Assembly: GCF_004345605.1 (NCBI RefSeq)
Contig: NZ_SLVY01000005.1
Coordinates: forward strand, 62,001-126,000
Origin: Rhodococcus sp. SMB37
Lineage (GTDB): Bacteria > Actinomycetota > Actinomycetes > Mycobacteriales > Mycobacteriaceae
DNA length: 64,000 nt
Direction: 5' to 3'
How positions within the stretch are numbered: position 1 is the stretch's first letter; each line of letters opens with the position of its first letter. A model generated the notes under the pieces. That model was not told the DNA's origin and made no database searches. It saw only the letters and a program-made list of their open reading frames with translations. Made by a program: the position numbers and the translations under genes. Shown here piece by piece: positions 1 through 16,904 of this stretch.

Positions 1-1030
1 CCACACCGACCCGGGTGAGGGTCGCCAGCGCGAGGCAGGCAAGCAGAGTCCAGATCGACATCACCATCGGGGGCACCGACCCGGGATGCCGGGCAGCCAA
101 TGGGGCAGCGCCCGTTCCGTAGAACGCCTTGCGGGTGATCCAGTTCCGGAACTTGGTCCGGTGATCGTGCGCGACCCGTGCGATCGGTTCGTATCTCAGC
201 CGCCAACCGTCGGTCTGCAGTCGCCAGCACAGGTCGACATCTTCCGCGACCTGCATCGACTCGTCGAATCCGCCGCACGCTTCGAGCGCGTGACGGCGCA
301 CGAGCAGAGCAGCGCTCGGCACGTAGGAGACGGGGCCGCCGGCGACCACCGCGGACTCGCGTCGCCCCAGGTCCAGCGACGATCGCGCGTGCTCGTACCG
401 TCCGAGCGCGCCGCTGTCCGGATCGAGCGCGACGATGCGCGGGGCCACGAGTGCGACCGCCGGGTCGCTGAAGTGTCCGAGACCCGCCTCGAGCCACCCG
501 AGGCGGGGCACGACATCGGAGTCGAGAAAAGCCACGAATTCCGTTGATGCATCACGTAATCCAGTGTTCCGGGCAGCGGCAGGACCCCGCGACACATCGT
601 GCCGAAGCACACGGACCTTGCCCTTCTCGGGAGTCTTGATCGGAGTGTCGGAGCCGTCGTCGACGACGATGACCTCGTGCCCGTGCAACGCTTCCAGCAG
701 CCGTCGCAGGCCCGCCTCGTTGTTCTTGGTGGGGATCACCACCGTGACGTCGGACGTCGACGGCAGCACGGCGGGTCGGGGGTTCCCCACACCGGAGTCG
801 AGCAGACGCCTCGCCACCACCGCCGTCTGCGAATCGACGACCCTGAGGAAATCTCCGTCGATCATGGACGCGGCCGCGGGCGCGAGTTTGAGCATCCGCG
901 TGGGCGAACCGCCGATCAGGACACGGCCCGCGGCGAACTTGCGTACCCGTGGATCGATACGCACCCCGAAGCCGTCGGGAAGCCTGGCCAGTCGGGTCTG
1001 CGCGACCCGAGGTGATGTCGCCTGACTCAC
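1..1030 (-). CDS. mftF: Mycofactocin glycosyltransferase MftF (3' end beyond window)
   Basis: Family 2 (GT-A) glycosyltransferase that, in the characterised mycobacterial pathway, adds the oligoglucose chain to premycofactocin. About 343 residues are visible and the reading frame runs off the left edge; the family is normally about 470 residues, so the C-terminal part is missing. Visible motifs on the minus strand are [25 protein letters not shown] (nucleotide-sugar aspartates) and [12 protein letters not shown] (the DXD-like metal site). The start is GTG at 1030, overlapping the mftE stop as GTGA, which indicates translational coupling and one transcript. Identity is secure from the motifs plus the mftE neighbour. 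mftD, usually next in the cluster, is about 15 kb away. Confidence 0.93.
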
Positions 1031-1785
1031 CGAAGCCTCCCCTCCGTCCCTGGTTGCCACCGGGCGACCTGTGCGGTCGCACGCTCCACCAGATTCGCGA
1101 ACATGTCGGCCCCGAGTTCGGCGGTCGATCCGGCCGGATCACCCAGCACACCGTTCGCAGACACCGAAACGATACCGGCTTCGCGCAGCCGCGGCATCAA
1201 AGTGCGGAGCGGTTCGGTCGCACCCGCTGCAGCACGGCTCATATCGACCGTGTCGGGGGCTAGATGCAACATCAGGCTCGTCTCGGTGATGCCCGCGTGA
1301 GCGTCGGCCCCGGGGACCGCGCACGGCAACCACGCGACATCCCGGCCCTCGTAGCGCAGCAGCGCGACGGCTTCGGCCAGCGGATACGCATTGCCGCCGT
1401 GCCCGTTGACGAACAGCACCCGATCCGCCCACCGGCACGCCGAGCGGCCGTACTCGACGAACATCGCTTTCGTGACGTCGGCGCCGATCGACACGGTGCC
1501 CGGGAACCCCTCGTGCTCGCCGCTCGCGCCGTAGGCGATCGGCGGGGCGAGCGCGACGTCGGGCAGGGCCTCGGTGACGGCCAGGGCGATGCGGGTGTCG
1601 GTGTCGAGGGGCAGGTGGGGACCGTGCTGTTCGAATGCCCCCACGGGAACCGCGACCGTTACCCCGTGGGTTTCGACATCTGGCCAATAGGCGGCCGCAA
1701 GCTCCCGTTTGACGTCCTCCCGGCCGTGAACGACCGGGATTCCTCCTGCAGCACTACGCGCCACTCCGGTGGGTTCCTGTTTCAC
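1027..1785 (-). CDS. mftE: Mycofactocin precursor peptide peptidase MftE (creatininase family)
   Basis: Creatininase-fold metallopeptidase that cleaves the MftC-modified MftA precursor and releases the C-terminal Val-Tyr derived core (AHDP). It reads as 252 residues from GTG 1785. Metal-site motifs are present: [16 protein letters not shown] near residue 55 and VNGHGGNA further on. The first seven codons are suspicious: GTG-AAA-CAG-GAA lies inside the hairpin end of the neighbouring TnpB element, so the start was probably rebuilt by the insertion. GTG at 1764 is the next in-frame candidate. A GGGAGG at about 1795-1800 could serve as ribosome-binding site for GTG 1785. It is followed directly by mftF with a GTGA overlap. 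The body of the protein looks intact. Confidence 0.93.
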
Positions 1786-1830
1786 AGGGACTTACCTCCC
1801 GCTAGACGGCAGGATTTACGGTCCCTCCGC
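1776..1830 (-). ncRNA. Probable omega-RNA (reRNA) 3' scaffold and right end of TnpB element
   Basis: Directly seen on the minus strand: the last codons of tnpB and the following bases form a nested stem. The outer arms are GGGAC/GTCCC (1787-1825), the inner arms are CCT-G-CCG/CGG-G-AGG with one G-G mismatch, and then comes a small hairpin CCTGT-GAA-ACAGG (1776-1788). Known TnpB systems transcribe an RNA from the 3' end of tnpB through the element's right end, with the guide taken from the flanking DNA. Here that flank is the start of mftE. The exact boundary and 5' end of the RNA are not determined. Confidence 0.55.
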
Positions 1831-2950
1831 AGGCGTTCAACCACTCCGCACGTCCTGCGGCGTGGATGTTCTTCGCAGCGTTGAGGTCGCGGTCGTGGAC
1901 CACCCCGCACGCTGTGCACTGCCACTCCCGAATCGAAAGCGGTTTCGGGCCGTCCCTCTTCCCACACGCCGAGCACAACTGACTCGACGGGAACCAGCGG
2001 TCCACCTTCACGAAGGTCCGCCCGTACCGGGCGGCCTTCTCCTCCACCATGCGAGTGAACATCGCCCACCCGGCATCGTGCACCGACTTCGCCAACCGCG
2101 TCCGCGCCAACCCGGTGACACACAAATCCTCGACGAACACCGCTTGATTCTCGCGGATGATCACCGTGGACTGCTTGTGCGCCCAATCCTTGCGGGCATC
2201 GGCCACCATGGCATGGGCCCGGGCGACACGGATACGCGCCTTGACCCTGTTCTTCGATCCCTTCTGTGTGCGCGACAGACCCTGCTGCGCCTTGCGGAGT
2301 CTGCGTTCGGCGCGACGGAAAAACTTCGGGGACTCGATGACCTTCCCATCCGAGAGCACCGCGAACGTCGCGAGCCCCAGGTCGATCCCCACCTCCGCAT
2401 CGCACTCCGGCAACGGATCGTCGGTCGTCTCGACGACAAAACTGGCGAAGTACCGACCCGCCGCATCCTTGATGATGGACACGCTCGACGGCTCCGACGG
2501 CAACTCCCGCGACCACGCCACCTTCACCTCGCCGACCTTCGCGATATACAGCTTCCGGTTCGGGCGCAGCGAGAACCCGTTGCGGGTCAGCCGGATCGCC
2601 TGCCGGTTGTCCTTGCGGGACCGGAACCGCGGCGCGGCGACCTTGCGGCCCTTGCGCTTGCCTGACATCGAGTCGAACCAATTGCGGTACGCGCGCCGCG
2701 CGTCCTGGCAGGCCTGCACCAACACCATCGACGCCACCTCGGCCAGCCACGCCCGTGGTGGGGTCTTCTTCGCTGCGGTGACCACCTGCTTCTGCACGTC
2801 GGTGTCCGAGAGCGTCACCCCGGCCGCGTACGCGTCCTGCCGTGCCCGCAGCGCATCGTTGAACACCACCCGCGCACACCCGAACGAGCGGGCCAGCATG
2901 TCCTGCTGCCCGGACGTCGGATAGACGCGGTACTGGTATCGAAGCTGCAC
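1802..2950 (-). mobile_element. tnpB: RNA-guided nuclease TnpB (IS200/IS605 or IS1341-type orfB), apparently intact
   Basis: A 382-residue TnpB protein. The split RuvC active site appears complete: D190 in VGIDLGLATF, E274 in VFVEDLCVTG, and the DRDLNAAKNI block (D353/D355). The four zinc ligands sit at C326, C329 (LCSACG) and C345, C348 (QCTACG). The N-terminal helix-turn-helix-like region and the R/K-rich middle are normal. No TnpA transposase (Y1 or serine type) is found beside it, so this is a stand-alone IS1341-like element that would need a helper to move. It lies immediately upstream of mftE on the same strand and is flanked on its 5' side by a subterminal hairpin (2993-3015). It probably acts with the RNA at its 3' end. 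Confidence 0.93.
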
Positions 2951-2992
2951 AGCAAGACCATAACCACGACCACCGACATGATTGATGCGCTG

Positions 2993-3015
2993 AGCCGGCC
3001 CTGAAGGACCGGGCT
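2993..3015. repeat. Subterminal hairpin at the left end of the TnpB element
   Basis: On the minus strand the bases read AGCCCGGTCC-TTCA-GGGCCGGCT, a near-perfect stem with a four-base loop, 43-65 bases 5' of the tnpB start codon. Such hairpins mark the left ends of IS200/IS605-type elements. The outer boundary (TAM side) of the element cannot be fixed from this copy alone. The rest of 2951-3245 shows no gene. Confidence 0.5.
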
Positions 3016-3245
3016 TGCGCGCTACGTTCTCCGGTCACCGCTCCGATGCTAGGGGGTGACACCCCCGGCTGCGTAACCCGGTCATCACCCGCGGCAATAC
3101 CTCCCGGTCCGCCCCACGGTCACCGAGCAGGGCCGACGAGCACCCCCACCAGATGACGAGGGAACGAGCCCCCACCGGACGCGGTGCGCCGCCCGAAACT
3201 CGTAAGCCATTCGGGCTGCTCCGGCGAGTGAGTACGATTCCTCGA

Positions 3246-4226
3246 GTGCAGATCGAACCTCGACCACTCGACGACCCGGAAGTCCAGACGCTCATCGACG
3301 AGGTCCAGCTCGAATACACCCGCCGCTACGGGGGCCCGGACGACACCGTCCTCGAACCGGACGAGTTCACCGAGCCGAACGGACTCTTCCTACTGGCACG
3401 AATCGGCGACGAGCCGGTGGGAATCGGCGGCTGGCGCGCCCACAGTTCCGCGTACCGGGGGCTGCGCGACGGTGATGCCGAGATCAAGCGCATGTACGTG
3501 CGGGCCGATGCACGGCGTCGAGGCATCGCACGGCGGGTACTCCACGCGCTGGAACGCACCGCAGCCGACGCGGGCCGCAGACGCATGGTCCTCGAGACCG
3601 GCATCGAGCAGCCCGAAGCGATCGCGATGTACGCCACCGCCGGATACGACCCGATGCCCGAGCGCTACGGTCAGTATGCCGACACAGAGGTTGCGTTGTA
3701 CTTCTGCAAGGGCCTACCGCCGATCCGCCGTGCAACCGAGCACGAGCTGCCCGTCCTGCAAGACATCGAACGTGCCGCCGGGCAACCGTTCGCCGACATC
3801 GGGATGTCGTTGGTGGCGGACGACGAACCGCCCACGATCGCTGAGCTCCGAACCTATCTCGATGCCGCCCGATGCTGGGTGTACGTCGACGAAAAGAACT
3901 ACCCGATAGGATATCTCGTCGCTGCAGACGTCGACGACGGACTCCACATCGAACAGGTGTCGGTGCACCCGGATGCCGCACGGCGCGGAGTGGGTCGAGC
4001 ACTCATCGACCATGCCGCGGCGGGAGCACGTGATCGCGGTTGCGCCACATTGACACTCACCACATTCCGCGACGTCCCGTGGAACGCGCCGTACTACGAG
4101 CGGCTCGGCTTCGAGACCGTGGACGATACCCGCCTCACCCCCGAATTGGGGGCGATCCTCGCCGACGAGCGGGCCCGCGGCATCGGGCAGTGGCCACGTA
4201 TCGCGATGGTGCGCGCGCTCGACTGA
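3246..4226 (+). CDS. Tandem GNAT-domain N-acetyltransferase
   Basis: A protein of about 326 residues with two GNAT acetyltransferase domains. The first has IGGWRAHSS and RMYVRADARRRGIARRVLHAL, where the RRGIAR stretch is the acetyl-CoA pyrophosphate loop. The second has IEQVSVHPDAARRGVGRALIDHA with the loop RRGVGR, and NAPYYERLGFE near the C-terminus. Both CoA loops look functional, which is typical of two-domain GNATs such as MshD-like enzymes, but the substrate cannot be read from sequence. GTG 3246 is chosen because the conserved fold begins just after it; GTG 3228 is also possible and no clear ribosome-binding site decides. It converges on the TetR gene with a gap of only 6 bases. Confidence 0.8.
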   Translation: MQIEPRPLDDPEVQTLIDEVQLEYTRRYGGPDDTVLEPDEFTEPNGLFLLARIGDEPVGIGGWRAHSSAYRGLRDGDAEIKRMYVRADARRRGIARRVLHALERTAADAGRRRMVLETGIEQPEAIAMYATAGYDPMPERYGQYADTEVALYFCKGLPPIRRATEHELPVLQDIERAAGQPFADIGMSLVADDEPPTIAELRTYLDAARCWVYVDEKNYPIGYLVAADVDDGLHIEQVSVHPDAARRGVGRALIDHAAAGARDRGCATLTLTTFRDVPWNAPYYERLGFETVDDTRLTPELGAILADERARGIGQWPRIAMVRALD

Positions 4227-4232
4227 TCTGCG

Positions 4233-4898
4233 CTACCGCCCCGCCAGTGCCCGAGTTTCGCGAGTCTCCTCGGACGTCGGCGCACAGAGCAATCCCTCCC
4301 ACGCATCGACGAGGGCGGGTAGCTCGGTCGGCGCCAGTTCGGCCCCTGTGCGGGCGTACTGCGCGAGCGTTCCGAGCACACTCGTGTACACCATGATGAC
4401 CCGTTGTTTCCGTGTGTCTTCCGGAATATCGGCGATAACGCCGTGCAGTACGCGGTCGATCTCGAATCCACTCGCGGTGCCACCGGGGTCTGCCGCGATG
4501 AAGGTCTTGCCGATGATCTCCGCCTCCAGGAGCCTGTCGAGCAGGGCCACGTAATACTCGCCACGACGGACGCTGTCCGCCAGAGGCTCGACGAGACACC
4601 ACAATGCATCCCGCGCAGTGAATGTCGCACCGACCGCGACCCACTCACGGATCAATTCGCCGCGATAGGCGCTGATCCGAGGGAGGCGATGATCCAGGAT
4701 CGCGGTGAGCAAACCCTCCTTCGAACCGAAGTAGTACCTGACGACCGACGCGTTGTTCTGCCCCGCGGCAGCCCTGACGTCTGCCAGTGTCACCGGGTGA
4801 TATCCCCGCATCGCGAACAGGCGCTCCGCCGTCTCGACGAGCAGCAGTCGCGTCTCTTGCCCCGAACTGTACCGGCCCCGTCGGCTCGCCACGAGCAT
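4233..4898 (-). CDS. TetR/AcrR family transcriptional regulator
   Basis: A repressor of about 221 residues. The N-terminal helix-turn-helix is visible as ERLFAMRGYHPVTLADVRAAAG followed by VVRYYFGSKEGLLTAIL, the usual recognition-helix and YYFGSKE signature. The C-terminal ligand domain has no recognisable specificity. The start is taken as ATG 4898; a longer reading from TTG 4994 exists but lacks support. It is divergent from the TauD/ABC transporter block that begins at 5086, so it probably controls that block. An inverted repeat TAATT-N6-AATTA (5023-5038) in the shared intergenic region is a weak operator candidate. Confidence 0.82.
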   Translation of the reverse strand: MLVASRRGRYSSGQETRLLLVETAERLFAMRGYHPVTLADVRAAAGQNNASVVRYYFGSKEGLLTAILDHRLPRISAYRGELIREWVAVGATFTARDALWCLVEPLADSVRRGEYYVALLDRLLEAEIIGKTFIAADPGGTASGFEIDRVLHGVIADIPEDTRKQRVIMVYTSVLGTLAQYARTGAELAPTELPALVDAWEGLLCAPTSEETRETRALAGR

Positions 4899-5022
4899 CC
4901 ACCCCGAGTCTGAAGTCGTGCGGCGATGCGCCGCGGAACGGACCTGTCGGGTTCGTAGCTCTACCGGACTACTCGCCCGATGTAAACCCTTCAACGCACA
5001 CCGATCGTATGCGTACCCAACC

Positions 5023-5038
5023 TAATTTTTCGGAATTA
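5023..5038. promoter_or_regulatory. Candidate operator between tetR and the tauD genes
   Basis: Inverted repeat TAATT-N6-AATTA in the divergent intergenic region, directly 5' of a TTGACG hexamer (5041-5046) that could be a -35 element for the rightward genes. The arms are only 5 bases and AT-rich, so chance cannot be excluded. Confidence 0.25.
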
Positions 5039-5085
5039 CTTTGACGCTAGTTGAACCACCCGCCATGCGTCGAGAGGCCCGATCG

Positions 5086-5892
5086 ATGACCACGCTCGAA
5101 CAACCCACTGTGACCGTTGTGCCCCTCGCCGGGGCCATCGGCGCCGAGATCCACGGACTGCGTCTGAACTCGCTGACGGACGCAGACGTCAGCACAGTCA
5201 AGGACGCGCTCACTCGGCACTGTGTGCTGTTCTTCCCGGGCCAGGGAGTCGACCCGGCCGTTCACCGGACCTTCTCGCAGCATTTCGGCGAAATCGTGTA
5301 TCCGCACCAGCATCTGGCAAATCTCGAGTCCGAGGGCTATCGCGAGATCAGCGTCATCGGCACCGACAACGGCAGCGCGTATCAGGCGAACCGCTGGCAT
5401 TGCGATGTGTCGTGGCGGGCCGCGCCGTCGCGGTTCTCCATCCTGCACATGCAGGTGCTGCCCTCTGCAGGTGGTGACACGCTGTGGTCGAACCAGTACG
5501 CCGCGCTCGAGGCGCTGTCCGCCCCGATCCGCGAGGCTCTGTACGGTCTGACCGCAACACATCGGATCTCCCCCCGGCCGGATGCGACCGAAGCAACGCA
5601 CCCCCTGGTGATCCGTCATCCGGAGACCGGCCGCCAGGCGTTGTTCGTCAACGATCTGTTCACCTCGCACATCAACGAGTTGTCGGCAGACGAGAGCGAA
5701 GCACTTCTTCGACTGCTCGTGTCGGTCTCGATCCGCCCGGAACTCACCGTCCGCCGCCGCTGGCAGGTCGGCGACATCGCGATCTGGGACAACCATTTCG
5801 TCCAACACAACGCGATCTACGACTACGGCCACGAGCCGCGCCGCATCCATCGCATCGAGGTGGCCCCCGAGGCCCCCGTCGCCGCCCGCTGA
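5086..5892 (+). CDS. TauD/TfdA family Fe(II)/2-oxoglutarate dioxygenase (first copy)
   Basis: A 268-residue member of the TauD/TfdA/alkylsulfatase group, which hydroxylates a carbon next to sulfonate, sulfate or similar groups with 2-oxoglutarate and O2. The iron triad is visible: H105 and D107 in NRWHCDVSW and H255 near the C-terminus, followed by the 2-oxoglutarate-binding arginine. The start ATG 5086 is preceded by GAGAGG (5072-5077). It is the first gene of a rightward block with a second TauD copy and a complete ABC importer, suggesting uptake and oxidative cleavage of an organosulfur or related compound. The substrate is inference only. Confidence 0.88.
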
Positions 5893-5932
5893 CCCCGTCA
5901 CCGAGTACTTCACATCACACGAGGAGATGCAC

Positions 5933-6892
5933 ATGACCACCGTCGAAACCCGTCCCAGCACCGCCACCGACATCTATGCGGCCGGCGGGATCACCGTCAC
6001 CGAACTCGGTGAGAACATCGGCGCGCTCATCGAAGGCGTACACGTCTCCGGCGACATCTCTGCCGATACTGCATACGCCATCCGCTATGCACTCGCCGCC
6101 AACAAGGTGGTCGTCTTCCGCGGCCAGCATCACCTCACGGACGAGATCCAGTACGAGTTCGCCGGGAAGCTCGGTACGCCGACCACCACGCACCCGACAC
6201 TGACCTCCGACGACAACCGGACCCTGATCCTCGAGGGCGCTGCGAACAGCTGGCACACCGATGTCACCTTCATCGATCGGATCCCGAAGGCCTCGATCCT
6301 CCGTGCCGTCGAGATCCCGCCCTACGGCGGTGCCACCACGTGGGCGTCGACGACCGCCGCGTACGCGCAGCTTCCCGCTCCGCTGAAAGCACTCGTGGAC
6401 AACCTGTGGGCGGTCCACAGCAACGAATACGACTACGCCGGGATCCACGCCGACCAGCGAGGCATCGCCGCACGGACGAAGGAGACGATGCAGAACTTCA
6501 CCCGTACGGTGTTCGAGACGGAACACCCGGTGGTTCGTGTCCACCCCGAGACCGGCGAGAAGTCGCTCGTGCTCGGCCATTTCGTCAAGAGGTTCGTCGG
6601 ACTCAAGAGCTCCGAGTCGACGGCCCTCTACCAGCTCCTGCAGGAGCGGATCATCAAGCTCGAGAACACCCTGCGGTGGGCCTGGACGCCGGGCGACCTC
6701 GTCATCTGGGACAACCGCGCCACCCAGCATTACGGCATCGCGGATTACGGCGACCACAAGCGCAGCGTCCACCGGGTGACCGTGGCCGGTGATGTCCCCG
6801 TCTCGGTCGACGGCGAAACAAGCCGCATCATCACCGGCGACGCCTCGCACTTCTCCGTCGTCGACAGCCCCGACCGCTTCCCCGGCTTCTAA
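5933..6892 (+). CDS. TauD/TfdA family Fe(II)/2-oxoglutarate dioxygenase (second copy, AtsK-like)
   Basis: A 319-residue dioxygenase of the same family as the preceding gene but clearly diverged from it. Iron ligands are H108 and D110 in NSWHTDVTF and H280 in [10 protein letters not shown]. The motif [17 protein letters not shown] is typical of the alkylsulfatase/taurine dioxygenase branch. The start is ATG 5933, six bases after GAGGAG; an ATG two codons earlier lies too close to that site. It follows the first copy by 40 bases and precedes the ABC importer by 79 bases, so one transcript is likely. The pair may act on different substrates or in sequence. Confidence 0.88.
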
Positions 6893-6971
6893 TCCTGATT
6901 CGACTCTCCCCCTTCGGATCCGGTCACTCCCCTTGTCGAGTGGCCGGATCCGCTCCCGAAAGGACCCCTCC

Positions 6972-8549
6972 GTGTTCAGCCGCCCCGCACACCTTCGGCA
7001 CCGCTTCGTGCTCGCAGCGATCGCCCTGTCCCTCGCCGGTGTTCTCGCCGTTGCGGGATGTACCTCGGCGGTCGACCAGGCCGCGACGGAGGCCGGCAGC
7101 GCGGAGGCCACCGAGGGTGGTGTGCTGCGGATCGGAGACGGCGGCGACCTTGTCCCTGCCTCGTTCTACTCCGGTGCCCTGGCGGGAGCAACCATCACCG
7201 GGCTGGTCTACGACACCCTCGTCAGCTACCCACCGGATGGATTGGAGGCGGAACCCGTACTGGCCGAATCCTGGGAGGTCTCTCCCGACGGCACGTCGGT
7301 GACGCTTGCGTTGCGACCCGACGTGACCTTCCACGACGGTAGGCCGTTCACGTCCGAGGATGCCGAGTTCAGCCTGCGTACCTACGCGGATCCCATACGG
7401 GCCGGTCAGCTTGCGAGTACCGCCGCGCTGATCACGGAGTACGACACCTCCGACCCGCACGTCCTCACCCTGACGCTCTCTGAGCCGGCGAGCAACATCC
7501 TCGACCTGCTCGACATCGTGCCGATCATCGACAAGGACACCATCGCCGACTTCGACGCCGGTTCCGGGTACAACGGAACCGGAGCGTTCCGTTTCGTGGA
7601 GTGGAAGCCGAGCGCGTCGATCACCTTCGAGGCCAATGAGGGCTACTGGGGCGGAGCACCCCACCTAGACGGTGTCGAATACCTCGTCATTCCCGACGCC
7701 CAGACGCGGGTCTCGCAGCTGCGCTCCGGTCAGCTCGATCTTCTGCTCTCGATAGCTCCACGCGATGCCGAACAGCTCGAGAGTGACAACCGCTACCAGC
7801 TGGTCGACCAGACAGGAGTGGAACGCAACTGGTATATCGGCGCGAATGTCCAGGCACCCGGGATCAGCGACGTCCGGGTCCGTCAGGCCATCGCCTACGC
7901 GGTGGACAACGATCGCATCCTCGCGGACGTCTACCAGGGATACGGGACCGTCGGCAGTCTGCCCTGGCCGGAATACTCCCCCGCATACGACGCGGACCTC
8001 AACGACACCTACGCCCAGGACGTCGACAAAGCCAAGTCACTGGTTGCGGAAGTCGGCGCCATCCCGGTCATCCCGATCACCTACACGACGGGCTCGAGCG
8101 AGTCCGAGGCCGTTGCGCAGATCGTCCAGGCGGACCTCGCCGCAGCTGGGATCGAGACCAGGCTCGAGCCGGTGGACCAGGCAACCAATCTCAAACACCT
8201 GATCGGCGGAACCTACGGCGGGCTCTGGATCACGGCCCACACCTACACGCAGTACACGCCGGCGACCCTTCCGACCAGCGCCTACCCGTTCAATTCGAAG
8301 AAGAACACGTCGAACTTCATCGATCCGGACTATCAGGCAGCCGTCGCGAACGCGTGGCAGATCATCGATCCGACCAGCGCCGAGGCCGAGGCCGCGTACA
8401 AGGTCCTCAACACCGAGTTGCTCGACAACGCGTTCCTCATCGAGTTGTTCGCCTCCGAGAACTGGCTCGCCATGTCAGGAAACGTCCACGGCGTCGACTG
8501 GTCCAAGAAGGCCGAGCTCGACCTCAGCGACACCTATCTGAGTGAGTGA
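6972..8549 (+). CDS. ABC transporter substrate-binding lipoprotein, family 5 (peptide/nickel type)
   Basis: A 525-residue extracytoplasmic binding protein of the SBP_bac_5 family. It starts at GTG 6972 with a signal peptide of about 29 residues ending in the lipobox LAVAGC, so C30 should carry the lipid anchor. The mature protein has typical family features such as VLAESWEVSPDGTSVTLALRP and FHDGRPFTSEDAEFSLR. It delivers ligand to the permeases encoded directly downstream. Members bind peptides, nickel, opines and many other small compounds, so ligand identity cannot be assigned. The association with two TauD dioxygenases points to a sulfur-containing or carboxylate substrate. Confidence 0.9.
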   Translation: MFSRPAHLRHRFVLAAIALSLAGVLAVAGCTSAVDQAATEAGSAEATEGGVLRIGDGGDLVPASFYSGALAGATITGLVYDTLVSYPPDGLEAEPVLAESWEVSPDGTSVTLALRPDVTFHDGRPFTSEDAEFSLRTYADPIRAGQLASTAALITEYDTSDPHVLTLTLSEPASNILDLLDIVPIIDKDTIADFDAGSGYNGTGAFRFVEWKPSASITFEANEGYWGGAPHLDGVEYLVIPDAQTRVSQLRSGQLDLLLSIAPRDAEQLESDNRYQLVDQTGVERNWYIGANVQAPGISDVRVRQAIAYAVDNDRILADVYQGYGTVGSLPWPEYSPAYDADLNDTYAQDVDKAKSLVAEVGAIPVIPITYTTGSSESEAVAQIVQADLAAAGIETRLEPVDQATNLKHLIGGTYGGLWITAHTYTQYTPATLPTSAYPFNSKKNTSNFIDPDYQAAVANAWQIIDPTSAEAEAAYKVLNTELLDNAFLIELFASENWLAMSGNVHGVDWSKKAELDLSDTYLSE

Positions 8550-8555
8550 CCGAAT

Positions 8556-9515
8556 ATGCTGAACTACGCTCTGCGACGGATTCCCTCCGCGCTCATCGTC
8601 CTCGCCGCCGGATCCGTTCTGGTCTTCGCTCTGCTCCGCTTGGTTCCCGGTGATCCCGCCATGGTCCTCGCAGGACCGGACGCACCCCCGGAAGCGATCG
8701 ACGCATTGCGCGCCGAACTCGGACTCACCGGATCTCCTATTGCACAGTACTTCTCGTGGATATCCGGCATCATCACGTTGAATCCGGGAAGGTCGCTGAT
8801 CCTCGGCGGTGAGATCAGTTCGCTCCTGCTCGATGCACTCGGGAACACCCTCGTTCTCGCGCTGTCGGCCCTGGTCCTCGCTGTTGCCGTAGCGCTCGTC
8901 CTGAGCACCGTGTCGGTGATCGTGGACCGCAAGTGGCTGGGCAGCATCGTGACCACATTCGGCACCGTCGCCGTCGCCATTCCGAACTTCGTCACCGGTG
9001 CGGCCTTGGTGGTTCTCTTCGGTGTCGTGTGGGCCGTCCTACCGGCCGGTGGCACACCCCGCAGGGGATTCCTCGATGACATCGGCATCTCTGCGCAGTA
9101 CCTGATCCTGCCCGCAGTGTGCCTGGCGTTGCCGATCGCCGCCTCACTGACGCGGTTCCTCACCGAATCGCTGCGCACCCAACTTCAGGAACCGTATGTC
9201 ACCACGGCGCGGGCCTTGGGGATCTCTCGCCGTCGGATCGTGCTGACCCAGGCGTTGCCGAATGCGCTGCCCGCCTCGGTCACCGTCCTCGGCATCCAGA
9301 TCGGCCATCTGCTCGGAGGTGCCGTACTGGTGGAAGCGATCTTCGCGTGGCCCGGACTCGGCCATCTCATCGAGCGGGCCATCTCGAGCCGCGACTATCC
9401 GGTGGTGCAGGTGATGCTGCTCTTCTCGGTGGCGTTGTTCGTGGTCATCCAGTTGGTCACCGACCTGATCAACGCGTCACTCGATCCCCGAATCCGGCTG
9501 GGAGACAATGCATGA
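8556..9515 (+). CDS. ABC transporter permease, DppB type
   Basis: A 319-residue inner-membrane permease with about six hydrophobic segments. The N-terminal LNYALRRIPSALIVLAAGSV is typical of DppB/OppB proteins, and the EAA loop for ATPase contact is seen around TARALGISRRRIVLTQALPNALP. It forms the translocation pore with the next gene. It starts 6 bases after the binding protein stop and its own stop overlaps the next start (ATGA at 9512-9515). Confidence 0.92.
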   Translation: MLNYALRRIPSALIVLAAGSVLVFALLRLVPGDPAMVLAGPDAPPEAIDALRAELGLTGSPIAQYFSWISGIITLNPGRSLILGGEISSLLLDALGNTLVLALSALVLAVAVALVLSTVSVIVDRKWLGSIVTTFGTVAVAIPNFVTGAALVVLFGVVWAVLPAGGTPRRGFLDDIGISAQYLILPAVCLALPIAASLTRFLTESLRTQLQEPYVTTARALGISRRRIVLTQALPNALPASVTVLGIQIGHLLGGAVLVEAIFAWPGLGHLIERAISSRDYPVVQVMLLFSVALFVVIQLVTDLINASLDPRIRLGDNA

Positions 9516-10378
9516 GTACCACGATTGTCACCACTGCCCCGATCGCCCCGGTGGGCGCGGATCGCGACAGCGCCTGGAGCGCGCTCGGCCGCGGCCGCGG
9601 TCTGGCCGGTCTGATCCTGGTCGGGATCGTGGTCCTGGCCGGAGTGCTCGCGCCGTGGCTCGCCCCGTTCGCCCCCGACCAGCAGATCCCCGGCGCCACC
9701 CTCCAGCCGCCGGGTGGCGAGCACCTTCTCGGTACGGACTCCGTCGGCCGCGACGTCCTCTCCCGCACCCTGTACGGCATCCGCATCGACCTGCTCGTCG
9801 TGTTCCTGGCAGTTCCGGTGGGTGCGGCGCTCGGTTCACTGCTCGGACTGGCCGCGACCCGGTACTACTGGCTCGACACGCTCGTCCAGCGCGCGTTCGA
9901 TCTGATCCTCGCTTTCCCGACCATCGTGCTGGCCATCGCTCTGGCGATGGTGATCGGCCCGGGGGTATGGACGATCGCCACGGTGATCGTGCTCGCCGAG
10001 ATCCCGGTGTTCGGACGGCTCATGCGGACCTCGGTGCTCACGGTGCGCCAGGCACCCTACGTCGAGGCAGCACGGTCCGTCGGGGCCGATGAGGGCTGGA
10101 TCATGCGCCGGCATATCCTCCCGAATTGCCTCGAACCACTCACGGTGCAGCTCGCGCTCGCGATGTCTGTCGGAGTGTTCATCGAAGGTGCAATGAGTTT
10201 CCTCGGTCTCGGGATCACGCCGCCCACGCCGTCCCTGGGCTCGCTGATCAAGGAGGGAACCCAGAATGCCTATCACTCACCGTTGTTCGTCGTAGGTCCG
10301 CTGGTCGTGGTGGTCGTTCTCGTCCTCGGCCTGCTCCTGATCTCGCAAGCACTGGCCGCCCGTTCGCGTCGCCGGTGA
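9512..10378 (+). CDS. ABC transporter permease, DppC type
   Basis: A 288-residue permease. A cytoplasmic N-terminal tail is followed by the first membrane helix and the conserved DppC segment HLLGTDSVGRDVLSRTLYGI. The EAA loop is EAARSVGADEGWIMRRHILPN. The start ATG 9512 overlaps the stop of the preceding permease (ATGA). It pairs with the DppB-type permease. The ATPase gene downstream has a possible GTGA overlap at 10375 but a better start at 10411. Confidence 0.92.
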   Translation: MSTTIVTTAPIAPVGADRDSAWSALGRGRGLAGLILVGIVVLAGVLAPWLAPFAPDQQIPGATLQPPGGEHLLGTDSVGRDVLSRTLYGIRIDLLVVFLAVPVGAALGSLLGLAATRYYWLDTLVQRAFDLILAFPTIVLAIALAMVIGPGVWTIATVIVLAEIPVFGRLMRTSVLTVRQAPYVEAARSVGADEGWIMRRHILPNCLEPLTVQLALAMSVGVFIEGAMSFLGLGITPPTPSLGSLIKEGTQNAYHSPLFVVGPLVVVVVLVLGLLLISQALAARSRRR

Positions 10379-10410
10379 CCCCCGCCGCACTCACCAGCAA
10401 GGACCTTCCC

Positions 10411-12033
10411 GTGACCACACCACTGCTCACCGTCTCCGGCCTCACCATCGACTTCGGAACCGGGCATCCCGCCGTCGACAATGTCGCGCTCCAGGTCGAG
10501 CGCGGCGAGGTCGTGGCGCTGGTCGGCGAATCCGGATCAGGCAAGTCCATGACCGCGCGGGCGATCCTCGGCCTCCTCCCCGAGACGGCGTCCGCAACGG
10601 GCTCGATCCTCCTGGGTGGAACCGAGATGATCGGCGCCGACGAGAGTGATCTCGAGCGACATCGCGGCTCCGACGTCGCACTGATCTTCCAGGAACCGCA
10701 GAGCGCATTGAATCCCGTGCGCCGCATAGGCTGGCAGTTGCGCGAGGCCATCCGTGCACACCGAAAGGTCTCGAAGGCAGAGTCGAGGAAGCTCGCGATC
10801 TCACTTCTCGAACAGGTCGAGATCCCCGAGCCCGCGAAGCGCGTGGACCACTTTCCCCATCAGCTCTCCGGCGGGCAGAAACAGCGTGTCGCGATCGCTC
10901 TCGCACTCGCGAACGATCCCGAACTGCTCGTCGCCGACGAACCCACGACCGCACTCGACGTCACCGTCCAGGCGGAAATCCTGGCACTGCTCGATCGTAT
11001 TCGTGAGCGCACCGGCATGGGCATCCTGCTCATCACCCACAACATGGGAGTCGTCGCCCAGCACGCCGACCGCGTCGTGGTCATGCGCAATGGAGAGGTC
11101 GTCGAGACCGACACTGCGCACTCGCTCTTCGATGCACCCGCGCACCCGTACACCCGCGCACTGCTCGCCGCTGTCCCGCGGCTGCCCGTACATGCGAGCA
11201 CCACCGTCGTCGAGAAGCCCGCCGGGGACGTCGTCCTCCAACTCGACAAGGTGGGCGTCACCTACCCCGCGCGTCGCGGTACCGAAGCGTTCCGCGCTGT
11301 CGACTCCGTCGACCTGACGGTGCACGTCGGCGAAGTGGTGGGTCTCGTCGGCGAATCCGGTTCCGGCAAGTCCACTCTCGGCCGCGTCGCGATCGGCCTC
11401 GTACAGGCGACCTCCGGGCAGGTATCCGTCGAAGGTCAGGACTTGTCGTCCATCTCCGCCACTCGGCTACGCACACTACGTCGCGACGTGGCGTTCGTGC
11501 AGCAGGATCCCGCTACCTCACTCGATCCACGGCTCTCCGTCGGGGCCAGTGTCCGGGAGCCCCTGGACGTGCATTCCGTCGGTACCCCGGCAGAACGACG
11601 GAAGCGAGTTCTCGATCTGTTCGATGCGGTGCGCCTACCGGCAGCCCTCACCGACCGTTTCCCGCATCAACTCTCCGGCGGACAGCGGCAGCGTGTCGCG
11701 CTGGCCCGCGCCCTGGCACTGACACCGCGTCTGCTCATCGCCGACGAACCCACCAGTGCCCTCGACGTGTCGGTGCAGGCCGAGGTGCTCGACCTGTTCG
11801 CCGAGATCCAGCACGAGCTTCGGTTCGCCTGCCTGTTCATCAGTCATGACCTGGCCGTGGTGCACCGGGTCGCCGATCGCGTCGTGGTGCTGCAATCGGG
11901 ATCGGTCGTCGAGGCCGGTGCGGTCGATTCCGTCTTCACCAAACCGCGCGAGCCGTACACTCGGGCGCTCATCGACGCGGTGCCGATTCCGGATCCTGCC
12001 CGCCGACACGGCGACGCCGTACTTGCCGGCTGA
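10411..12033 (+). CDS. ABC transporter ATPase with two fused nucleotide-binding domains (DppD-DppF type)
   Basis: A 540-residue protein with two ATPase domains in tandem, which energises the importer encoded upstream. Each half has Walker A GESGSGKS, and the signature/Walker B pairs are [11 protein letters not shown]...[12 protein letters not shown] and [11 protein letters not shown]...[12 protein letters not shown]. Fusion of DppD- and DppF-like halves is common in actinobacteria. GTG 10411 is chosen because AAGGA lies 8 bases upstream; GTG 10375 would add 12 residues and overlap the permease stop as GTGA. This is the last gene of the rightward block; it faces the leftward mft operon with 93 bases between. 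Confidence 0.92.
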
Positions 12034-12126
12034 CACCTTCTCAGGACCGCGACGACGTGTAGAGGTCAGAAATAACAGTAGGTGTCGCATATTGTGAATC
12101 ACCAACCGACATTCGCGGCATCTACG

Positions 12127-14094
12127 TCAGACTCCCAACTCCAGCGCCGCACGGTCGCCTTCGAGGATCGCGGCGTGGGCCCGGCGCGGGGTCACGGCGT
12201 CGCCCACTCGCGACACGCGGATCCCGCTCTCCACCAGAGCTGTCCACATTTCGTCGACCGGTTCCTGGTGAGTCGCGACGACCACTCCGTCGACCGTGAG
12301 CACACGGGTTCGTCCGGTGGGGTGATGTGCCAGCGACACGTCGAGCCCTTCGTCGCGGACCGTCAGCCCTGTCACCGTCACGTCGGTGATCCTGTCGATG
12401 CACTTCTCGTGAGCACGACGCAGCCAGCCGTCCATGTCGAGAGTGAGGCCGAGGTCCTGGCCCACGATCATTCCGGGGGTACACACCGTCACGTCGCAGC
12501 CGCGGTCGGCGAGTAGTTCGGCGACCGACGTCGCCTCGTGGAATCCGAGATCGTCCACGACAAGTACCCGGCCCGTCGGCGCTGCACGTCCGTCGAGCAC
12601 ATCTCGCACATCGACGACCCGCGGCGACTCCCCGGCCCAACTCGGACGCTGCGGGCGCGCGCCCGTCGCAATGATCACGGCATCCGGCCGCTGGGCGCGC
12701 ACCTCGTCGGCCGTCGCGGCGACACCGGTCCGAAGATCGACACCTCGCCGACGACACTGCGCTTCGAGACTCTCCACGGCCGCGAGCAATTCGCCACGGT
12801 AGGGGGCAACCGCCGCTGTGCGGATCTGCCCACCGACCGACGTTTCCTTCTCGAACAGCGTCACGGCATGGCCCCGCTCGGCGGCGGTCGCTGCGGCCTG
12901 TAACCCGGCCGGCCCCCCGCCGACCACAAGCACCCGGAGCCCGGGCATCCGCAGCCGGGGCAGCGGCTCCGATTCCAGGCCCGCGCGCGGGTTCACGGTG
13001 CAGCCGATCCACCGCCCCAGCCCGACACGGCCGATGCATTCCTGGTTGCAGCCGATGCACGGGCGCACCTCGTCGTCGCGACCGGAGAGCGTCTTCCGGG
13101 CGAAGTCCGGATCGGCGATCTGTGCTCGCACCGCGCCGACGAGATCACACACACCGCTGGACAGGGCAGCCCGAACCTGGTCCGGTCTCGTGAAACGCCC
13201 GACCCCGACGACCGGCAGAGACACCGCGGCGCGGATCGCGTCGGGCACGAACAGGGAGTAGCCGTGCGGAGTTGCCATGGGCGCTTCGATGAGATGCAGG
13301 GTCTCGGTGGCAACTCCGACGGACGTGTTCAGGTAGTCGATGTGACCGGTGGTCTCGAGCATCCGGGCGACTCGCACGGCATCGTCGATGTCGATGCCGC
13401 CGTGAGTGCCGTCGTGCCCGCTCAATCGCACACCGACTACTGCCTCGCGGCCGACAGCGGCGCGCACTGCAGCCACGACGTCGAGCAGCAATCGCGCCCG
13501 TCCGTGAAGATCGCCGCCGTAGTGGTCGGTGCGCGGGTTGGTACCGGGTGCGAGGAACGCGCGCAGGATCGAGGCCTGCGAGCACTGGATCTCGACGCCG
13601 TCGAATCCGCCGTCGATGCATCGGCGCGCCACGTCGAAGTATCCGTCGACGAGTTCGGCGATCTCGGGTTCACCGATCACCATCGGCACTTCCCGGAACA
13701 GCGGGTCCGGATCCGTTCCCGGCGACCACAGCGGACGTGCGGTGTACATCGAGCTACCTTGTGCGCCGTTGTGATTGAGCTGCGCGAGGATTCGGGTTCC
13801 GTGTCGATGCACTGCGCTGGTGAGTCGTCGGTATCCGGGAAGCACCGCCGGATCCCACCCGCGGATCAGTTTCTCGTAGGGCCGATCCGAGGGGTGCACG
13901 GTGTGTTCCTCGGTGATGATCATGGCCGCACCGCCGCGGGCGCGTGCCTCGTAGTACGCGATGTGCTGCTCGGTAATCGTGCCGCCGGATGAGAAGTTGG
14001 TGAGGTGGGCGGGGAAGATCATTCGGTTGCGCAACGTGAACGGGCCGATCCGCAGGGTGTCCTGCGAATCGGCTCCGCCCACGTCGCGCGGCAC
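12127..14094 (-). CDS. Mycofactocin-system FadH/OYE-family oxidoreductase (first type)
   Basis: A 655-residue flavoenzyme built like 2,4-dienoyl-CoA reductase: an N-terminal OYE/FMN barrel, a 4Fe-4S cysteine cluster CIGCNQECIGRVGLGRWIGC, then an FAD/NAD(P) domain with VLVVGGGPAGLQAA. Such enzymes reduce activated C=C bonds with NAD(P)H. OYE proteins of this architecture recur beside mycofactocin genes and are thought to use or recycle the cofactor, though this is not biochemically settled. It starts at GTG 14094, 3 bases after the SDR stop, and ends the operon that begins at mftA. A paralogue lies two genes upstream (14962-16881). Confidence 0.87.
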   Translation of the reverse strand: MPRDVGGADSQDTLRIGPFTLRNRMIFPAHLTNFSSGGTITEQHIAYYEARARGGAAMIITEEHTVHPSDRPYEKLIRGWDPAVLPGYRRLTSAVHRHGTRILAQLNHNGAQGSSMYTARPLWSPGTDPDPLFREVPMVIGEPEIAELVDGYFDVARRCIDGGFDGVEIQCSQASILRAFLAPGTNPRTDHYGGDLHGRARLLLDVVAAVRAAVGREAVVGVRLSGHDGTHGGIDIDDAVRVARMLETTGHIDYLNTSVGVATETLHLIEAPMATPHGYSLFVPDAIRAAVSLPVVGVGRFTRPDQVRAALSSGVCDLVGAVRAQIADPDFARKTLSGRDDEVRPCIGCNQECIGRVGLGRWIGCTVNPRAGLESEPLPRLRMPGLRVLVVGGGPAGLQAAATAAERGHAVTLFEKETSVGGQIRTAAVAPYRGELLAAVESLEAQCRRRGVDLRTGVAATADEVRAQRPDAVIIATGARPQRPSWAGESPRVVDVRDVLDGRAAPTGRVLVVDDLGFHEATSVAELLADRGCDVTVCTPGMIVGQDLGLTLDMDGWLRRAHEKCIDRITDVTVTGLTVRDEGLDVSLAHHPTGRTRVLTVDGVVVATHQEPVDEMWTALVESGIRVSRVGDAVTPRRAHAAILEGDRAALELGV

Positions 14095-14097
14095 CGG

Positions 14098-14910
14098 TCA
14101 GACCTTCGAATTGCCCTGATCGAGCGCCATCTGGCTTCCGGTGATGGTCTTCGCGCGGTCGCTTGCGAGGAAGAGCACCGAGTCGGAGATGTCGTCGGGA
14201 TCGGCGATGGGCTTTTCGGTGAGGATCGGGACGAAGTTCGGACCCCACGACGGGTACTTCTCGAACAGCTTCAGGACGGCGACGTCGGTACCCATGGGAG
14301 TGTTCACACCGTACGGGTGGATGGAGTTCACGCGGATGTTGAACTCGCCGAGTTCTTTGGCCGCAGCCTGCGTGAGTCCGACGAGTCCGAATTTCGCTGC
14401 CGCATAGTTGATCTGGCCGGGCATCGCCTTGAGTCCTGCGACCGAGCTGACGACGATGACGGAACCGCCGTTGCCCGCCTCGATCATCGCGGGTGCCGCA
14501 GCCTTGAGGGTCTTGAACACGCCCGTGAGGTTGATGTCGATGAGCTCTTCGAACTGGTCGTCGGGCATTTCCCAGAATCGGTTCCACGTGCAGATACCAG
14601 CATTGGCCACCACCACGTCGAGCCTGCCGAACTGCGCCACGCCCTCGTCGACGACGGCTTTCAATGCGGCGCTGTCACGAACGTCGCCGATGCGGGCCAC
14701 GATCTTGCCGCCGGCTTCCTCGACCGACCGGACCGTCTCCTGGAAATCGTCCTCCGTCGCCTGCTCGTAGGTGGCGTACTCCGTGACCGGTTTCGCGACG
14801 TCGATTCCGATGATCGATGCGCCTTCGCGCGCGAACCGCAGGGCATGGTTTCGGCCCTGTCCGCGCGCAATGCCGGTGATGAAGACGACCTTTCCGTCGA
14901 ATTCGCCCAT
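14098..14910 (-). CDS. Mycofactocin-coupled short-chain dehydrogenase/reductase
   Basis: A 270-residue SDR. The cofactor loop VFITGIARGQGRNHA is the variant that marks the mycofactocin-associated SDR subfamily, whose members hold NAD(H) tightly and pass electrons to mycofactocin rather than exchanging free NAD. The catalytic serine lies in VIVVSSVAG and the Y-x3-K pair in NYAAAKFGLVG. Substrates in this family are secondary alcohols and terpenols such as carveol. It sits between the two OYE-type enzymes in the mftABCD transcript. The start ATG 14910 is supported by alignment with family N-termini. Confidence 0.9.
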   Translation of the reverse strand: MGEFDGKVVFITGIARGQGRNHALRFAREGASIIGIDVAKPVTEYATYEQATEDDFQETVRSVEEAGGKIVARIGDVRDSAALKAVVDEGVAQFGRLDVVVANAGICTWNRFWEMPDDQFEELIDINLTGVFKTLKAAAPAMIEAGNGGSVIVVSSVAGLKAMPGQINYAAAKFGLVGLTQAAAKELGEFNIRVNSIHPYGVNTPMGTDVAVLKLFEKYPSWGPNFVPILTEKPIADPDDISDSVLFLASDRAKTITGSQMALDQGNSKV

Positions 14911-14961
14911 TGCAGCCGTTCCCTTCGATGGTCGAGTAGAACCTGTTTCAGTTTCTCCAGG

Positions 14962-16881
14962 CTACAGTGTGCGGCCCAGTTCGTACCCCTCCTCGACCGC
15001 TGATCGGACGGTTCTCGGTGCACCACAGTCGCCGATACGAGGCATCCCCGGCCTAGCCCCCACAGAGCCAGGCCGCAGCGGCGTGCAGTCGACGAGCATC
15101 GCGCCCTTCACCAGGGTCGATCCGCTCGCGTGGCGGTAGTCGAGATGAACACCTTCACCATCGACCGCACACACCGCGACGTCGAGGTGTCGGGTGATCC
15201 CGGCCCGCGCGAACCGAGCATTTGCCGCAACGAGATCGCCGGTGGGTTCCAATCGGGACCCGGCGATCGGGTCGACGGTCGCGTAGTGCACCTCCGCCCC
15301 GAGCTCAGCGAGACGTTCGGCCACCGCAACGGCGATCGGGCCACCGGCCGGGTCCCACACGACCACCCGGCCCGAGGTTCGGCCGAACTTCGTCAGCGCC
15401 TCGGCTGCCGTGAGGTACCGGCCTTCACCTGTGACGGGAAACGCCGGCGGGCGGGGTTCACCACCGGCGGCGAGCACCACCACGACTCCCTGTGCAACTG
15501 CCGATTCGATGTCGGTATCGACGGTCGCCGTGCCGGTCCGAATCTCGACACCGAGGGCCCGACACCGGCCCTCGAGCCAGCTGGTGAGCGCAGCGAAGTC
15601 GGCACGCCCTTGCCCGACCGAGATCAGGCGCGGCAGGCCCCCGACACGTTCGTCCCGTTCGGCCACCACGACCCGGTACCCGCGTTCGGCGAGCATGCGC
15701 GCAGCCTCGAGACCCGCCGGCCCCCCACCGACGACCATCACGTCGCGGGCAGCCCTTGCGGGCCGAACCGGCGGTCGTGCCTCTCGACCTGCCTCGGCAT
15801 TTCCGATGCATCCGACGGTCGGGTTGCGGAAGTCCCGGACGAGGCACGCCTGATTGCATCGCACACACGGTCTCGGCTGTCGACCATCGCGGACCGACCC
15901 CACGAGATCGGGATCGGCGATCTGAGCCCGCGTCATCTCGACCATGTCGCAGATCCCGTCGAGCACGAGTGCCGCACGATCGGGGTCGACGACACTGCCC
16001 TGCAGGACCACCGGCACGGCGCCGTCGACGGCGTGGCGTATCACGCGACACAACTCGTCGTTGAACGCTTCGGGGGTGTGCGCGTCGGGCCGATAGGTCT
16101 CCGGTGTGTACAGGCCACCGCGCACGACGGTGAGCAGGTCGAGATGCGGGGCGAGATCGCGGGCCCACACGGCTGCAACATCCGGGGTGATGCCCGCCCA
16201 AGGAGCGTTCTCATCACACGACAGGCGCAGTGCCACTATTCGTTTCGTCCCGAGTTCGTTGCGAACAACGGTCAGCACCTCGCGCAGCAGGAGCAGCCGA
16301 TCGGCACCGTATGCATCCTCGCGGTGGTTGGTGAGCCCGGACAGGAACTGGCGCAGCAGCGCGGTCGGTCCCGCATCGAGTTCCACACCGTCGACATCCG
16401 CCGCGACGGCGATCGCCGCGGCACGCCGGAATCCCTCGATGAGGGCATCGATGTCCGCGCCGGTCATCTCGGCAGGAAGTTCACGGGTGGACGGATCGGG
16501 TACTCGGGACGGCGCCCAGAGAACCGACTGAGACCAGGCGCTCGACCCCTGCAGGCCACAATGCCCGAGGCCGGCGAGGACGAGAGAGCCGTGAGGCCTG
16601 CACGCAGCGACGATCCGTGCCCATCCGTCACCGCTGGCTTCCGCGAGGGGTGCGCGTTCGTAGGGGTGGTCGAGCCGGTGGACCGACGCGACCTCGGTGA
16701 CGACGATCCCGGCACCGCCACGTGCCCGCCGCTCGTAGTAGGCGACGTGACGGCCTGAGAACGACCTTTCCTCACCGAGATTCGTCTCGTGCGGGCCGAA
16801 GATCACCCTCGCCGGGGCGGTGCGTCCGGCGAGGGTGATCGGATCGGTGAGCCTGGTCGGACCGTCGAAGCCAGCGCTCAT
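14962..16881 (-). CDS. Mycofactocin-system FadH/OYE-family oxidoreductase (second type)
   Basis: A 639-residue enzyme with the same layout as the gene at 12127-14094: OYE barrel, Fe-S cysteines in CVRCNQACLVRDF...GC, and an FAD/NAD(P) domain with VMVVGGGPAGLEAARMLAERGY. Sequence identity to its paralogue looks modest, and its barrel lacks parts of the usual OYE active-site pattern, so it belongs to a distinct subfamily. It starts at ATG 16881, 23 bases after the mftD stop, and is probably co-transcribed with it. The frame is open further upstream but that part lies inside mftD. Its substrate is unknown. Confidence 0.85.
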   Translation of the reverse strand: MSAGFDGPTRLTDPITLAGRTAPARVIFGPHETNLGEERSFSGRHVAYYERRARGGAGIVVTEVASVHRLDHPYERAPLAEASGDGWARIVAACRPHGSLVLAGLGHCGLQGSSAWSQSVLWAPSRVPDPSTRELPAEMTGADIDALIEGFRRAAAIAVAADVDGVELDAGPTALLRQFLSGLTNHREDAYGADRLLLLREVLTVVRNELGTKRIVALRLSCDENAPWAGITPDVAAVWARDLAPHLDLLTVVRGGLYTPETYRPDAHTPEAFNDELCRVIRHAVDGAVPVVLQGSVVDPDRAALVLDGICDMVEMTRAQIADPDLVGSVRDGRQPRPCVRCNQACLVRDFRNPTVGCIGNAEAGREARPPVRPARAARDVMVVGGGPAGLEAARMLAERGYRVVVAERDERVGGLPRLISVGQGRADFAALTSWLEGRCRALGVEIRTGTATVDTDIESAVAQGVVVVLAAGGEPRPPAFPVTGEGRYLTAAEALTKFGRTSGRVVVWDPAGGPIAVAVAERLAELGAEVHYATVDPIAGSRLEPTGDLVAANARFARAGITRHLDVAVCAVDGEGVHLDYRHASGSTLVKGAMLVDCTPLRPGSVGARPGMPRIGDCGAPRTVRSAVEEGYELGRTL

Positions 16882-16904
16882 CTGTGTCGGGCCGAGGTGG
16901 GCGG

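Follow-up and report, generated by a model that had tools for sequence, protein, structure and literature searches.

A tnpB-only transposon inserted at the start of mftE in Rhodococcus sp. SMB37, and the replacement translation start that its right end probably provides

How does a gene begin once a transposon has come between its start codon and the rest of its reading frame? The question is raised by the mycofactocin gene mftE in a stretch of 64,000 nucleotides of the Rhodococcus sp. SMB37 genome (hereafter the window; contig NZ_SLVY01000005.1, positions 62,001 to 126,000), in which the open reading frame of mftE starts inside the end of an insertion sequence. The initial annotation saw there an intact TnpB gene and proposed that the insertion had rebuilt the mftE start. 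The element and its nuclease gene are the following.

1709..3033, minus strand: IS200/IS605-type element of 1325 bp whose only gene is tnpB; its left end is 3033 and its right end is the TCAA of 1712-1709
1802..2950, minus strand: tnpB, coding for an RNA-guided endonuclease of 382 aa, intact, identified by NF040570 and Pfam domains

The integrity of tnpB is borne out. The protein scores 326 bits against NF040570 (cutoff 100), contains the Pfam domains OrfB_IS605, Cas12f1-like_TNB, and HTH, and gives 237.6 bits to the solved TnpB 8bf8 in a comparison with the PDB. The motif letters DLG, VEDL, and DRD, which we take to be the RuvC catalytic motifs, are kept in the one printed alignment with 9yyg, the best PDB match. 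Both the RuvC and the zinc-ribbon domains typical of TnpB in IS200/IS605 elements are present, and the loss of RuvC catalytic residues that marks TldR proteins is not seen. Judged by its sequence, the protein is probably an active nuclease.

The genome, a draft assembly in 52 contigs, has seven close full tnpB copies (the window copy included) that are 83-100% identical, the window copy differing from the next closest by 6% in protein. The right ends of these copies are alike through the tnpB stop, the region of a palindrome (CCTGT-GAA-ACAGG), and further bases down to GGGAGGACGTCAA, after which they diverge, which sets the element end at 1709. The initial annotation had let the right end stop at the palindrome, whereas the element extends 67 bases beyond it, to a TCAA that is presumably the right-end cleavage site as in IS608. 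The left ends of the close copies are alike from CGGAGAAC. As the element outside tnpB consists only of 3033-2951 and 1801-1709, there is no room for tnpA; the HUH transposase of autonomous IS200/IS605 elements is thus missing, and mobility would need TnpA in trans. In other respects the family traits are found. The element follows a fixed short target at its 5′ side, TGAC, in 30 of 33 frame-keeping copies, and comparison of the flanks with the empty sites of relatives reveals no target duplication either at mftE or at a second site, L004. Subterminal hairpins occur at both ends, the right one being helix 5 of a conserved fold (see below) and the left one, GCCCGGTCCTTCAGGGCCGG, being read from the sequence and not from covariation. 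The element itself is of a known kind, a tnpB-only IS200/IS605 element, for which IS1341-like is, we assume, the subgroup name.

The place of insertion is given by the left flank and by the relatives that lack the element.

3036..3038, minus strand: original mftE start GTG, stranded at the left flank, with the context ATCGGnnCG-GTG of 17/17 relatives
3034..3037, minus strand: TGAC, target site and presumed TAM, recurrent in other copies, overlapping the original start codon

The insertion lies between bases 5 and 6 of the native gene (GTG AC|A CGG). We found mftE in all 17 other same-genus genomes searched and the element right end at none of these loci; in all of them the mftE frame opens, uninterrupted, with GTG directly after ATCGGnnCG. 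The window flanks read ATCGGAGCG-GTGAC on the left and ACGGGAGCTT on the right or, at greater length, CTAGCATCGGAGCG-GTGAC and ACGGGAGCTTGCGG, and the start region of the nearest relative, which is 90% identical, reads CTAGCATCGGAGCG-GTGACACGGGACCTTGCC. Matches of the 17 relatives to the window MftE protein start at residue 5 to 25. The search was extended to the 80 best of 157 further mftE relatives, most of them from Rhodococcus, Gordonia, and other Actinomycetota; none contains the right end at a credible score, with one weak match (E 0.26). The proposal that the insertion rebuilt the mftE start is thus supported, all 17 relatives having a different, element-free N-terminus; what would have spoken against it, the same N-terminus in relatives without a nearby TnpB, is not what the relatives show. 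Of the 33 frame-keeping copies whose two ends are both resolved, 30 have TGAC directly at the predicted left end or no more than about 10 bases from it, and this TGAC probably acts as the TAM. In a 52-contig draft with many copies of the element, one might suspect that two distant places were joined through the repeat; yet the two flanks together restore, in register, the uninterrupted start context of the relatives, and the window tnpB is 6% off its closest copy in protein, so that an assembly artefact is highly improbable.

What remains of mftE downstream of the element is an open frame whose beginning is provided by the right end.

1027..1785, minus strand: mftE open reading frame, the first 25 codons from the element and the remainder MftE (TIGR03964)
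1783..1785, minus strand: replacement start GTG from the right end, its TG shared with the stop TGA (1784-1782) of the frame of the old start
1795..1800, minus strand: Shine-Dalgarno GGGAGG, 9 bases before the GTG at 1785, pairing with CCTGCC at the end of tnpB

The product belongs to the MftE family (329 bits against TIGR03964, cutoff 172), the match covering residues 29-251 only, and mftF comes next on the minus strand, within 1-3100. The original GTG now lies 1.3 kb upstream of the interrupted gene. In the mftE frame there is a stop TAA at 1794-1792. The NTG codons that follow it ahead of the enzyme core number just two, both GTG and both in the right end; downstream of the element, one has to go into the enzyme core to meet another in-frame NTG. 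Hence MftE, if begun at a usual start codon, begins in the transposon. The open frame of the right end has 25 codons and ends two bases into a codon, the register needed for rejoining a gene opened at NTG-AC. Codon 26 is made of AA (1710-1709) and A (1708), changing ACA to AAA, after which the native mftE frame goes on. Of 38 distinct right ends, 28 offer GTG as the new start and 10 offer ATG. The tail peptide varies among copies in its middle part, and its frame may be a by-product of RNA structure.

From these data one can propose a course of events. A tnpB-only element would have entered 3′ of TGAC at the mftE start and parted the start codon from the gene, its right end bringing a Shine-Dalgarno, a GTG, and an open frame of 25 codons in the needed register. 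MftE would then most likely be a fusion with a 25-residue tail coded by the omega-RNA scaffold, and ribosomes finishing TnpB, whose stop is 16 bases upstream, could start it. The best explanation overall, with a probability of about two in three, is that the right end gives the split mftE a replacement start, that the fusion is made, and that the guide RNA favours retention of the element.

The stretch that would carry this start is also the presumed scaffold of the guide RNA.

1709..1860, minus strand: conserved RNA fold, presumed omega-RNA scaffold, which consists of five covarying helices and extends over both the 3′ end of tnpB and the 5′ end of mftE

In the 38 right ends, 94.8% of the cells of the five-helix fold are paired, a figure somewhat favoured by the naming of the fold from the window-sequence fold and the RNAalifold result, and 13 of 31 pairs are changed on both sides. 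None of 500 shuffles is as good, and slid versions reach 32-48%. Helix 3 has one pair that fails to form in 23 of the 38 right ends, and the single-sequence fold of 192 nt has a z of -2.0. The nested stem that had been noticed at the tnpB 3′ end is real: CCTGCCG:CGGGAGG within GGGAC:GTCCC, taking up the Shine-Dalgarno. In helix 3 the Shine-Dalgarno is paired with the last tnpB codons and the TnpB stop codon (TAG, 1804-1802) is in the loop, so a ribosome finishing TnpB would be expected to open the helix.

The palindrome, at 1788-1776, had been read as a hairpin covering the mftE start codon. It is there and does cover the GTG at 1785-1783 that opens the mftE frame, but its pairing is not conserved. 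CCTGT:ACAGG was accordingly rejected as a conserved element, since 9 of 38 right ends can form its middle pair and two-sided changes occur in none of its pairs. The invariant CAGG pairs instead with a CCTG inside tnpB (99.3% of cells) as part of the five-helix fold. Other copies do share the right end, but most variants have lost the exact hairpin, whose absence elsewhere had been named as grounds for doubt. A 13-base palindrome alone means little by chance, and the element boundary, the empty site, and the covariation are independent of it. The right end thus has the conserved structured RNA of an OMEGA system followed by a presumed flank guide, the guide being assigned by position only.

There may be an alternative supply of ribosomes. 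In the window element, the frame of the old start is open for 418 codons, running through tnpB in another frame, to the stop TGA at 1784-1782, which overlaps the GTG at 1785-1783 (GTGA); ribosomes in this frame could thus stop on the replacement start. The frame is open to GTGA in seven of the eight copies at start codons (the exception is L100), compared with 7 of the 23 other copies that have TGAC (Fisher P 0.008); when TGAC is strictly required and each site is counted once, the figures are 5/6 and 6/22 (P 0.022). The eight start-codon copies had been listed before the comparison, from which L005 and L072, lacking TGAC, were left out. The first version, with 27 copies and without the plasmid copies L281-L283 and L093, gave 6/7 versus 4/20 (P 0.004). 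The frame is also open in each of the three plasmid copies, none of which is located at a start, and in L093, which is. An open frame of this sort fits the idea that ribosomes from the host start may be handed back to the host gene, as far as a small sample of related copies goes. Synonymous shuffling was dropped as a proof concerning the second frame: of 5000 shuffled versions of the window tnpB only 3 keep it open, but ordinary genes also fall below their own shuffles (mean z -1.6), and 9 of 95 of them (over 330 codons) have zero stops in that shifted frame.

Is mftE a single case? Right ends were surveyed in 18 genomes of the genus, 401 of the family (the best two per genome being scored), and 397 of the order, these sets overlapping, and 24 of the 401 family genomes were searched again more deeply. 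Together with fetched loci, this gave 101 distinct copies. A right-end start can be recognised in 82 of them, of which 55 have the phase of mftE, 20 have phase 0, and 7 have phase 1. With three plasmid copies and L052 added, 33 mftE-phase copies have both ends resolved (another 10 with both ends are in other phases and stand outside the 33); removing three without TGAC and merging two same-site pairs leaves 28 sites. Six of these distinct sites are at gene starts and 22 elsewhere. Apart from mftE, with gene names from reading of the translations, the six are L004 (TadE-like), L006/L052 (ABC ATPase), L100 (adenosine-kinase-like), L132, and L126 (small, HTH-like). Including the three copies without TGAC, 7 of 31 are on starts, the additional one being L093 (GTGGC). 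L087, L099, L103, and L107 resemble start fusions and were left uncounted, their left ends being unresolved. Empty orthologues give the start at two of the sites besides mftE. For L004, GTGAC stands at this point in the two closest of 17 relatives, most of the more distant ones having other starts; for L126, for which 29 other genomes have a match, 12 of the 14 orthologues looked at read ATGAC and 2 ATGAGT. The calls for L006/L052, L100, L132, and L093 are based on Shine-Dalgarno and frame.

In 400 kb of the Rhodococcus sp. SMB37 genome, analysed with our own gene caller, 69 of 2830 TGAC sites (2.4%) are on gene starts, and 69 of 336 called genes start with NTGAC. Against 2.4%, 6/28 is an excess (binomial P 5e-5), the copies being related and the counts thus not fully independent; L126 was added by hand with a partial left-end match, and without it one obtains 5/27 (P 4e-4). 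If every gene opened with NTGAC, an extreme bound that raises the expectation to 11.9%, the excess would not reach significance (P 0.11). Nor does the excess have to reflect targeting, since insertions within genes are weeded out. Survival at starts is what a working replacement start predicts. The right flanks of the 55 frame-keeping copies are coding in the right-end frame in 15 cases, in another frame of the same strand in 9, antisense in 15, and unclear in 16; this is no more than suggestive, since a TGAC within a gene cannot have the in-frame reading TGA-C, which yields part of the phase match for free. Right-end length variants keep the phase in 11 of 19 cases, which is no strong sign of selection.

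Several other features of these copies may be mentioned. L006 (G000) and L052 (G010) are of two subtypes, with left ends CGGAGAAC and CGCACTAT, and come from two species, and both have inserted at one and the same ATGAC start, that of an ABC-transporter ATPase gene. In L048/L165 (G011) the right end is 46 bases upstream of, and in frame with, a gene that by eye is aroC-like. The right ends of L077 and L080 (G000) are at contig ends C30 and C7; the flank of L077, in frame, corresponds by eye to the inner part of a LipB-like protein, so the element may interrupt lipB. A related group (L102, L106, L118, L119, L121, L123, L124, and L128) has a left flank like TGATC or GATC, not TGAC, and the right-end phase is 0 in seven of these eight copies and 1 in the remaining one. 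In the window, the very tip of the element, GGGAGGACGTCAA (1709-1721), also forms a Shine-Dalgarno of its own, at a distance of 7 bases from the junction, and in 6 of the 101 copies (L088, L059, L154, L148, L144, and L159) the flank starts directly with ATG or GTG.

If the fusion were not made, the insertion would have silenced mftE, the in-phase frame being an accident of RNA structure and GC-rich sequence, and the strain would have little or no MftE, with mycofactocin reduced or lacking. There are reasons to consider this: the native start is severed from the gene, a covarying stem encloses the Shine-Dalgarno, and no second mftE was found in the genome. The mftE frame is, however, intact, and its differences from the nearest named relative, L201, are mostly at third positions (17, 6, and 49 at codon positions 1, 2, and 3), though most of these may predate the insertion, which may itself be too recent for decay, as another copy has exactly the same 97-base right end. 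Start-codon sites are also over-represented among surviving insertions. Loss of MftE, with its consequence for mycofactocin, therefore seems to us unlikely, if far from negligible, and the replacement start is the preferred reading.

The guide is the remaining part of this reading.

1689..1708, minus strand: presumed guide of 16-20 nt, mftE sequence from the third base of codon 2, directly 3′ of TCAA

In the text available for ISDra2, the RNA carries about 16 nt of flank as guide (PMC8612924). That the guide is mftE sequence, as initially annotated, holds by position, but the bases concerned follow TCAA at 1709 and not the hairpin. With TGAC plus 14 guide bases and up to 2 mismatches, the sole genomic match is the locus itself, where TCAA replaces TGAC, and five more places appear at 3 mismatches; the expected target is therefore the element-free mftE allele. 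Cutting of the empty allele is expected here as for other TnpB elements, and an omega-RNA with the mftE guide, if made, would in this way favour retention of the element. It had also been suggested that the nuclease stands in the expression path of mftE, but nothing ties it to control of the gene. A domesticated, TldR-like TnpB regulating mftE through its guide would agree with a guide that by position is mftE sequence. One would then expect neither the kept RuvC motif letters nor six other close copies in the genome; moreover, no TAM plus guide target with up to 2 mismatches occurs in the genome besides the locus itself, and the arrangement is in none of the 17 relatives or the 80 further loci (best 80 of 157). 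Such regulation is thus very hard to credit.

To the extent covered by the available text of PMC8612924, ISDra2/IS608-type elements agree with the window element in inserting 3′ of a short target without duplication, in making a right-end RNA from the tnpB 3′ end plus flank, and in having TnpB as a nuclease. The window element differs in that its TGAC target overlaps start codons and its right-end frame is in register; the words "start codon" do not occur in the main text of PMC8612924. AmaTnpB processes its own mRNA into omega-RNA (available text of PMC10278001), and here too the scaffold overlaps the end of the tnpB mRNA. Unlike that of AmaTnpB, the window RNA would in addition contain the beginning of a host gene. 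IStrons rescue the host gene by splicing. Group I introns and IStrons, in the accessible parts of PMC3984707 and PMC3073962, are likewise elements limiting harm to a host gene, the rescue here being by a new start codon and not by splicing. Among the matches listed from open-access PMC, by titles and abstract openings, no paper deals with start-codon replacement by IS605-type elements, and, within the reach of this search, the precise use of start codons together with an in-register right-end frame seems to be a variant not described before.

More generally, and tentatively, this actinobacterial TnpB group might carry a portable translation start, a generalisation for which the odds are slightly short of even. 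Its TGAC target would meet NTG-AC starts, its right end would provide a Shine-Dalgarno, an RTG, and a frame in register, and its second frame would end in the RTGA overlap; it could thus insert without killing the gene, the omega-RNA scaffold becoming an N-terminal coding exon. If so, an insertion sequence would have a cheap route to occupy gene starts, one RNA would be both guide scaffold and 5′ coding end of a host gene, odd element-derived N-termini would be predicted in actinobacterial proteins, and the guides of such elements would be predicted to be 5′ ends of host genes.

As for the mft neighbourhood, the idea that the element splits an mftD-to-mftE operon was rejected, mftC/mftD being at 16.9-19.4 kb and mftE/F at 0-1.8 kb. 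The start of a divergent GNAT gene upstream of mftE is the same in 10 of 17 relatives (by eye), so that mftE has its own upstream region in much of the genus. Between mftC/mftD and mftE/F (window 3153-18113) lie two mycofactocin OYE enzymes and a mycofactocin-coupled SDR, then a block of ABC transporter and dioxygenase genes, a gene that by eye is TetR-like, and the GNAT gene.
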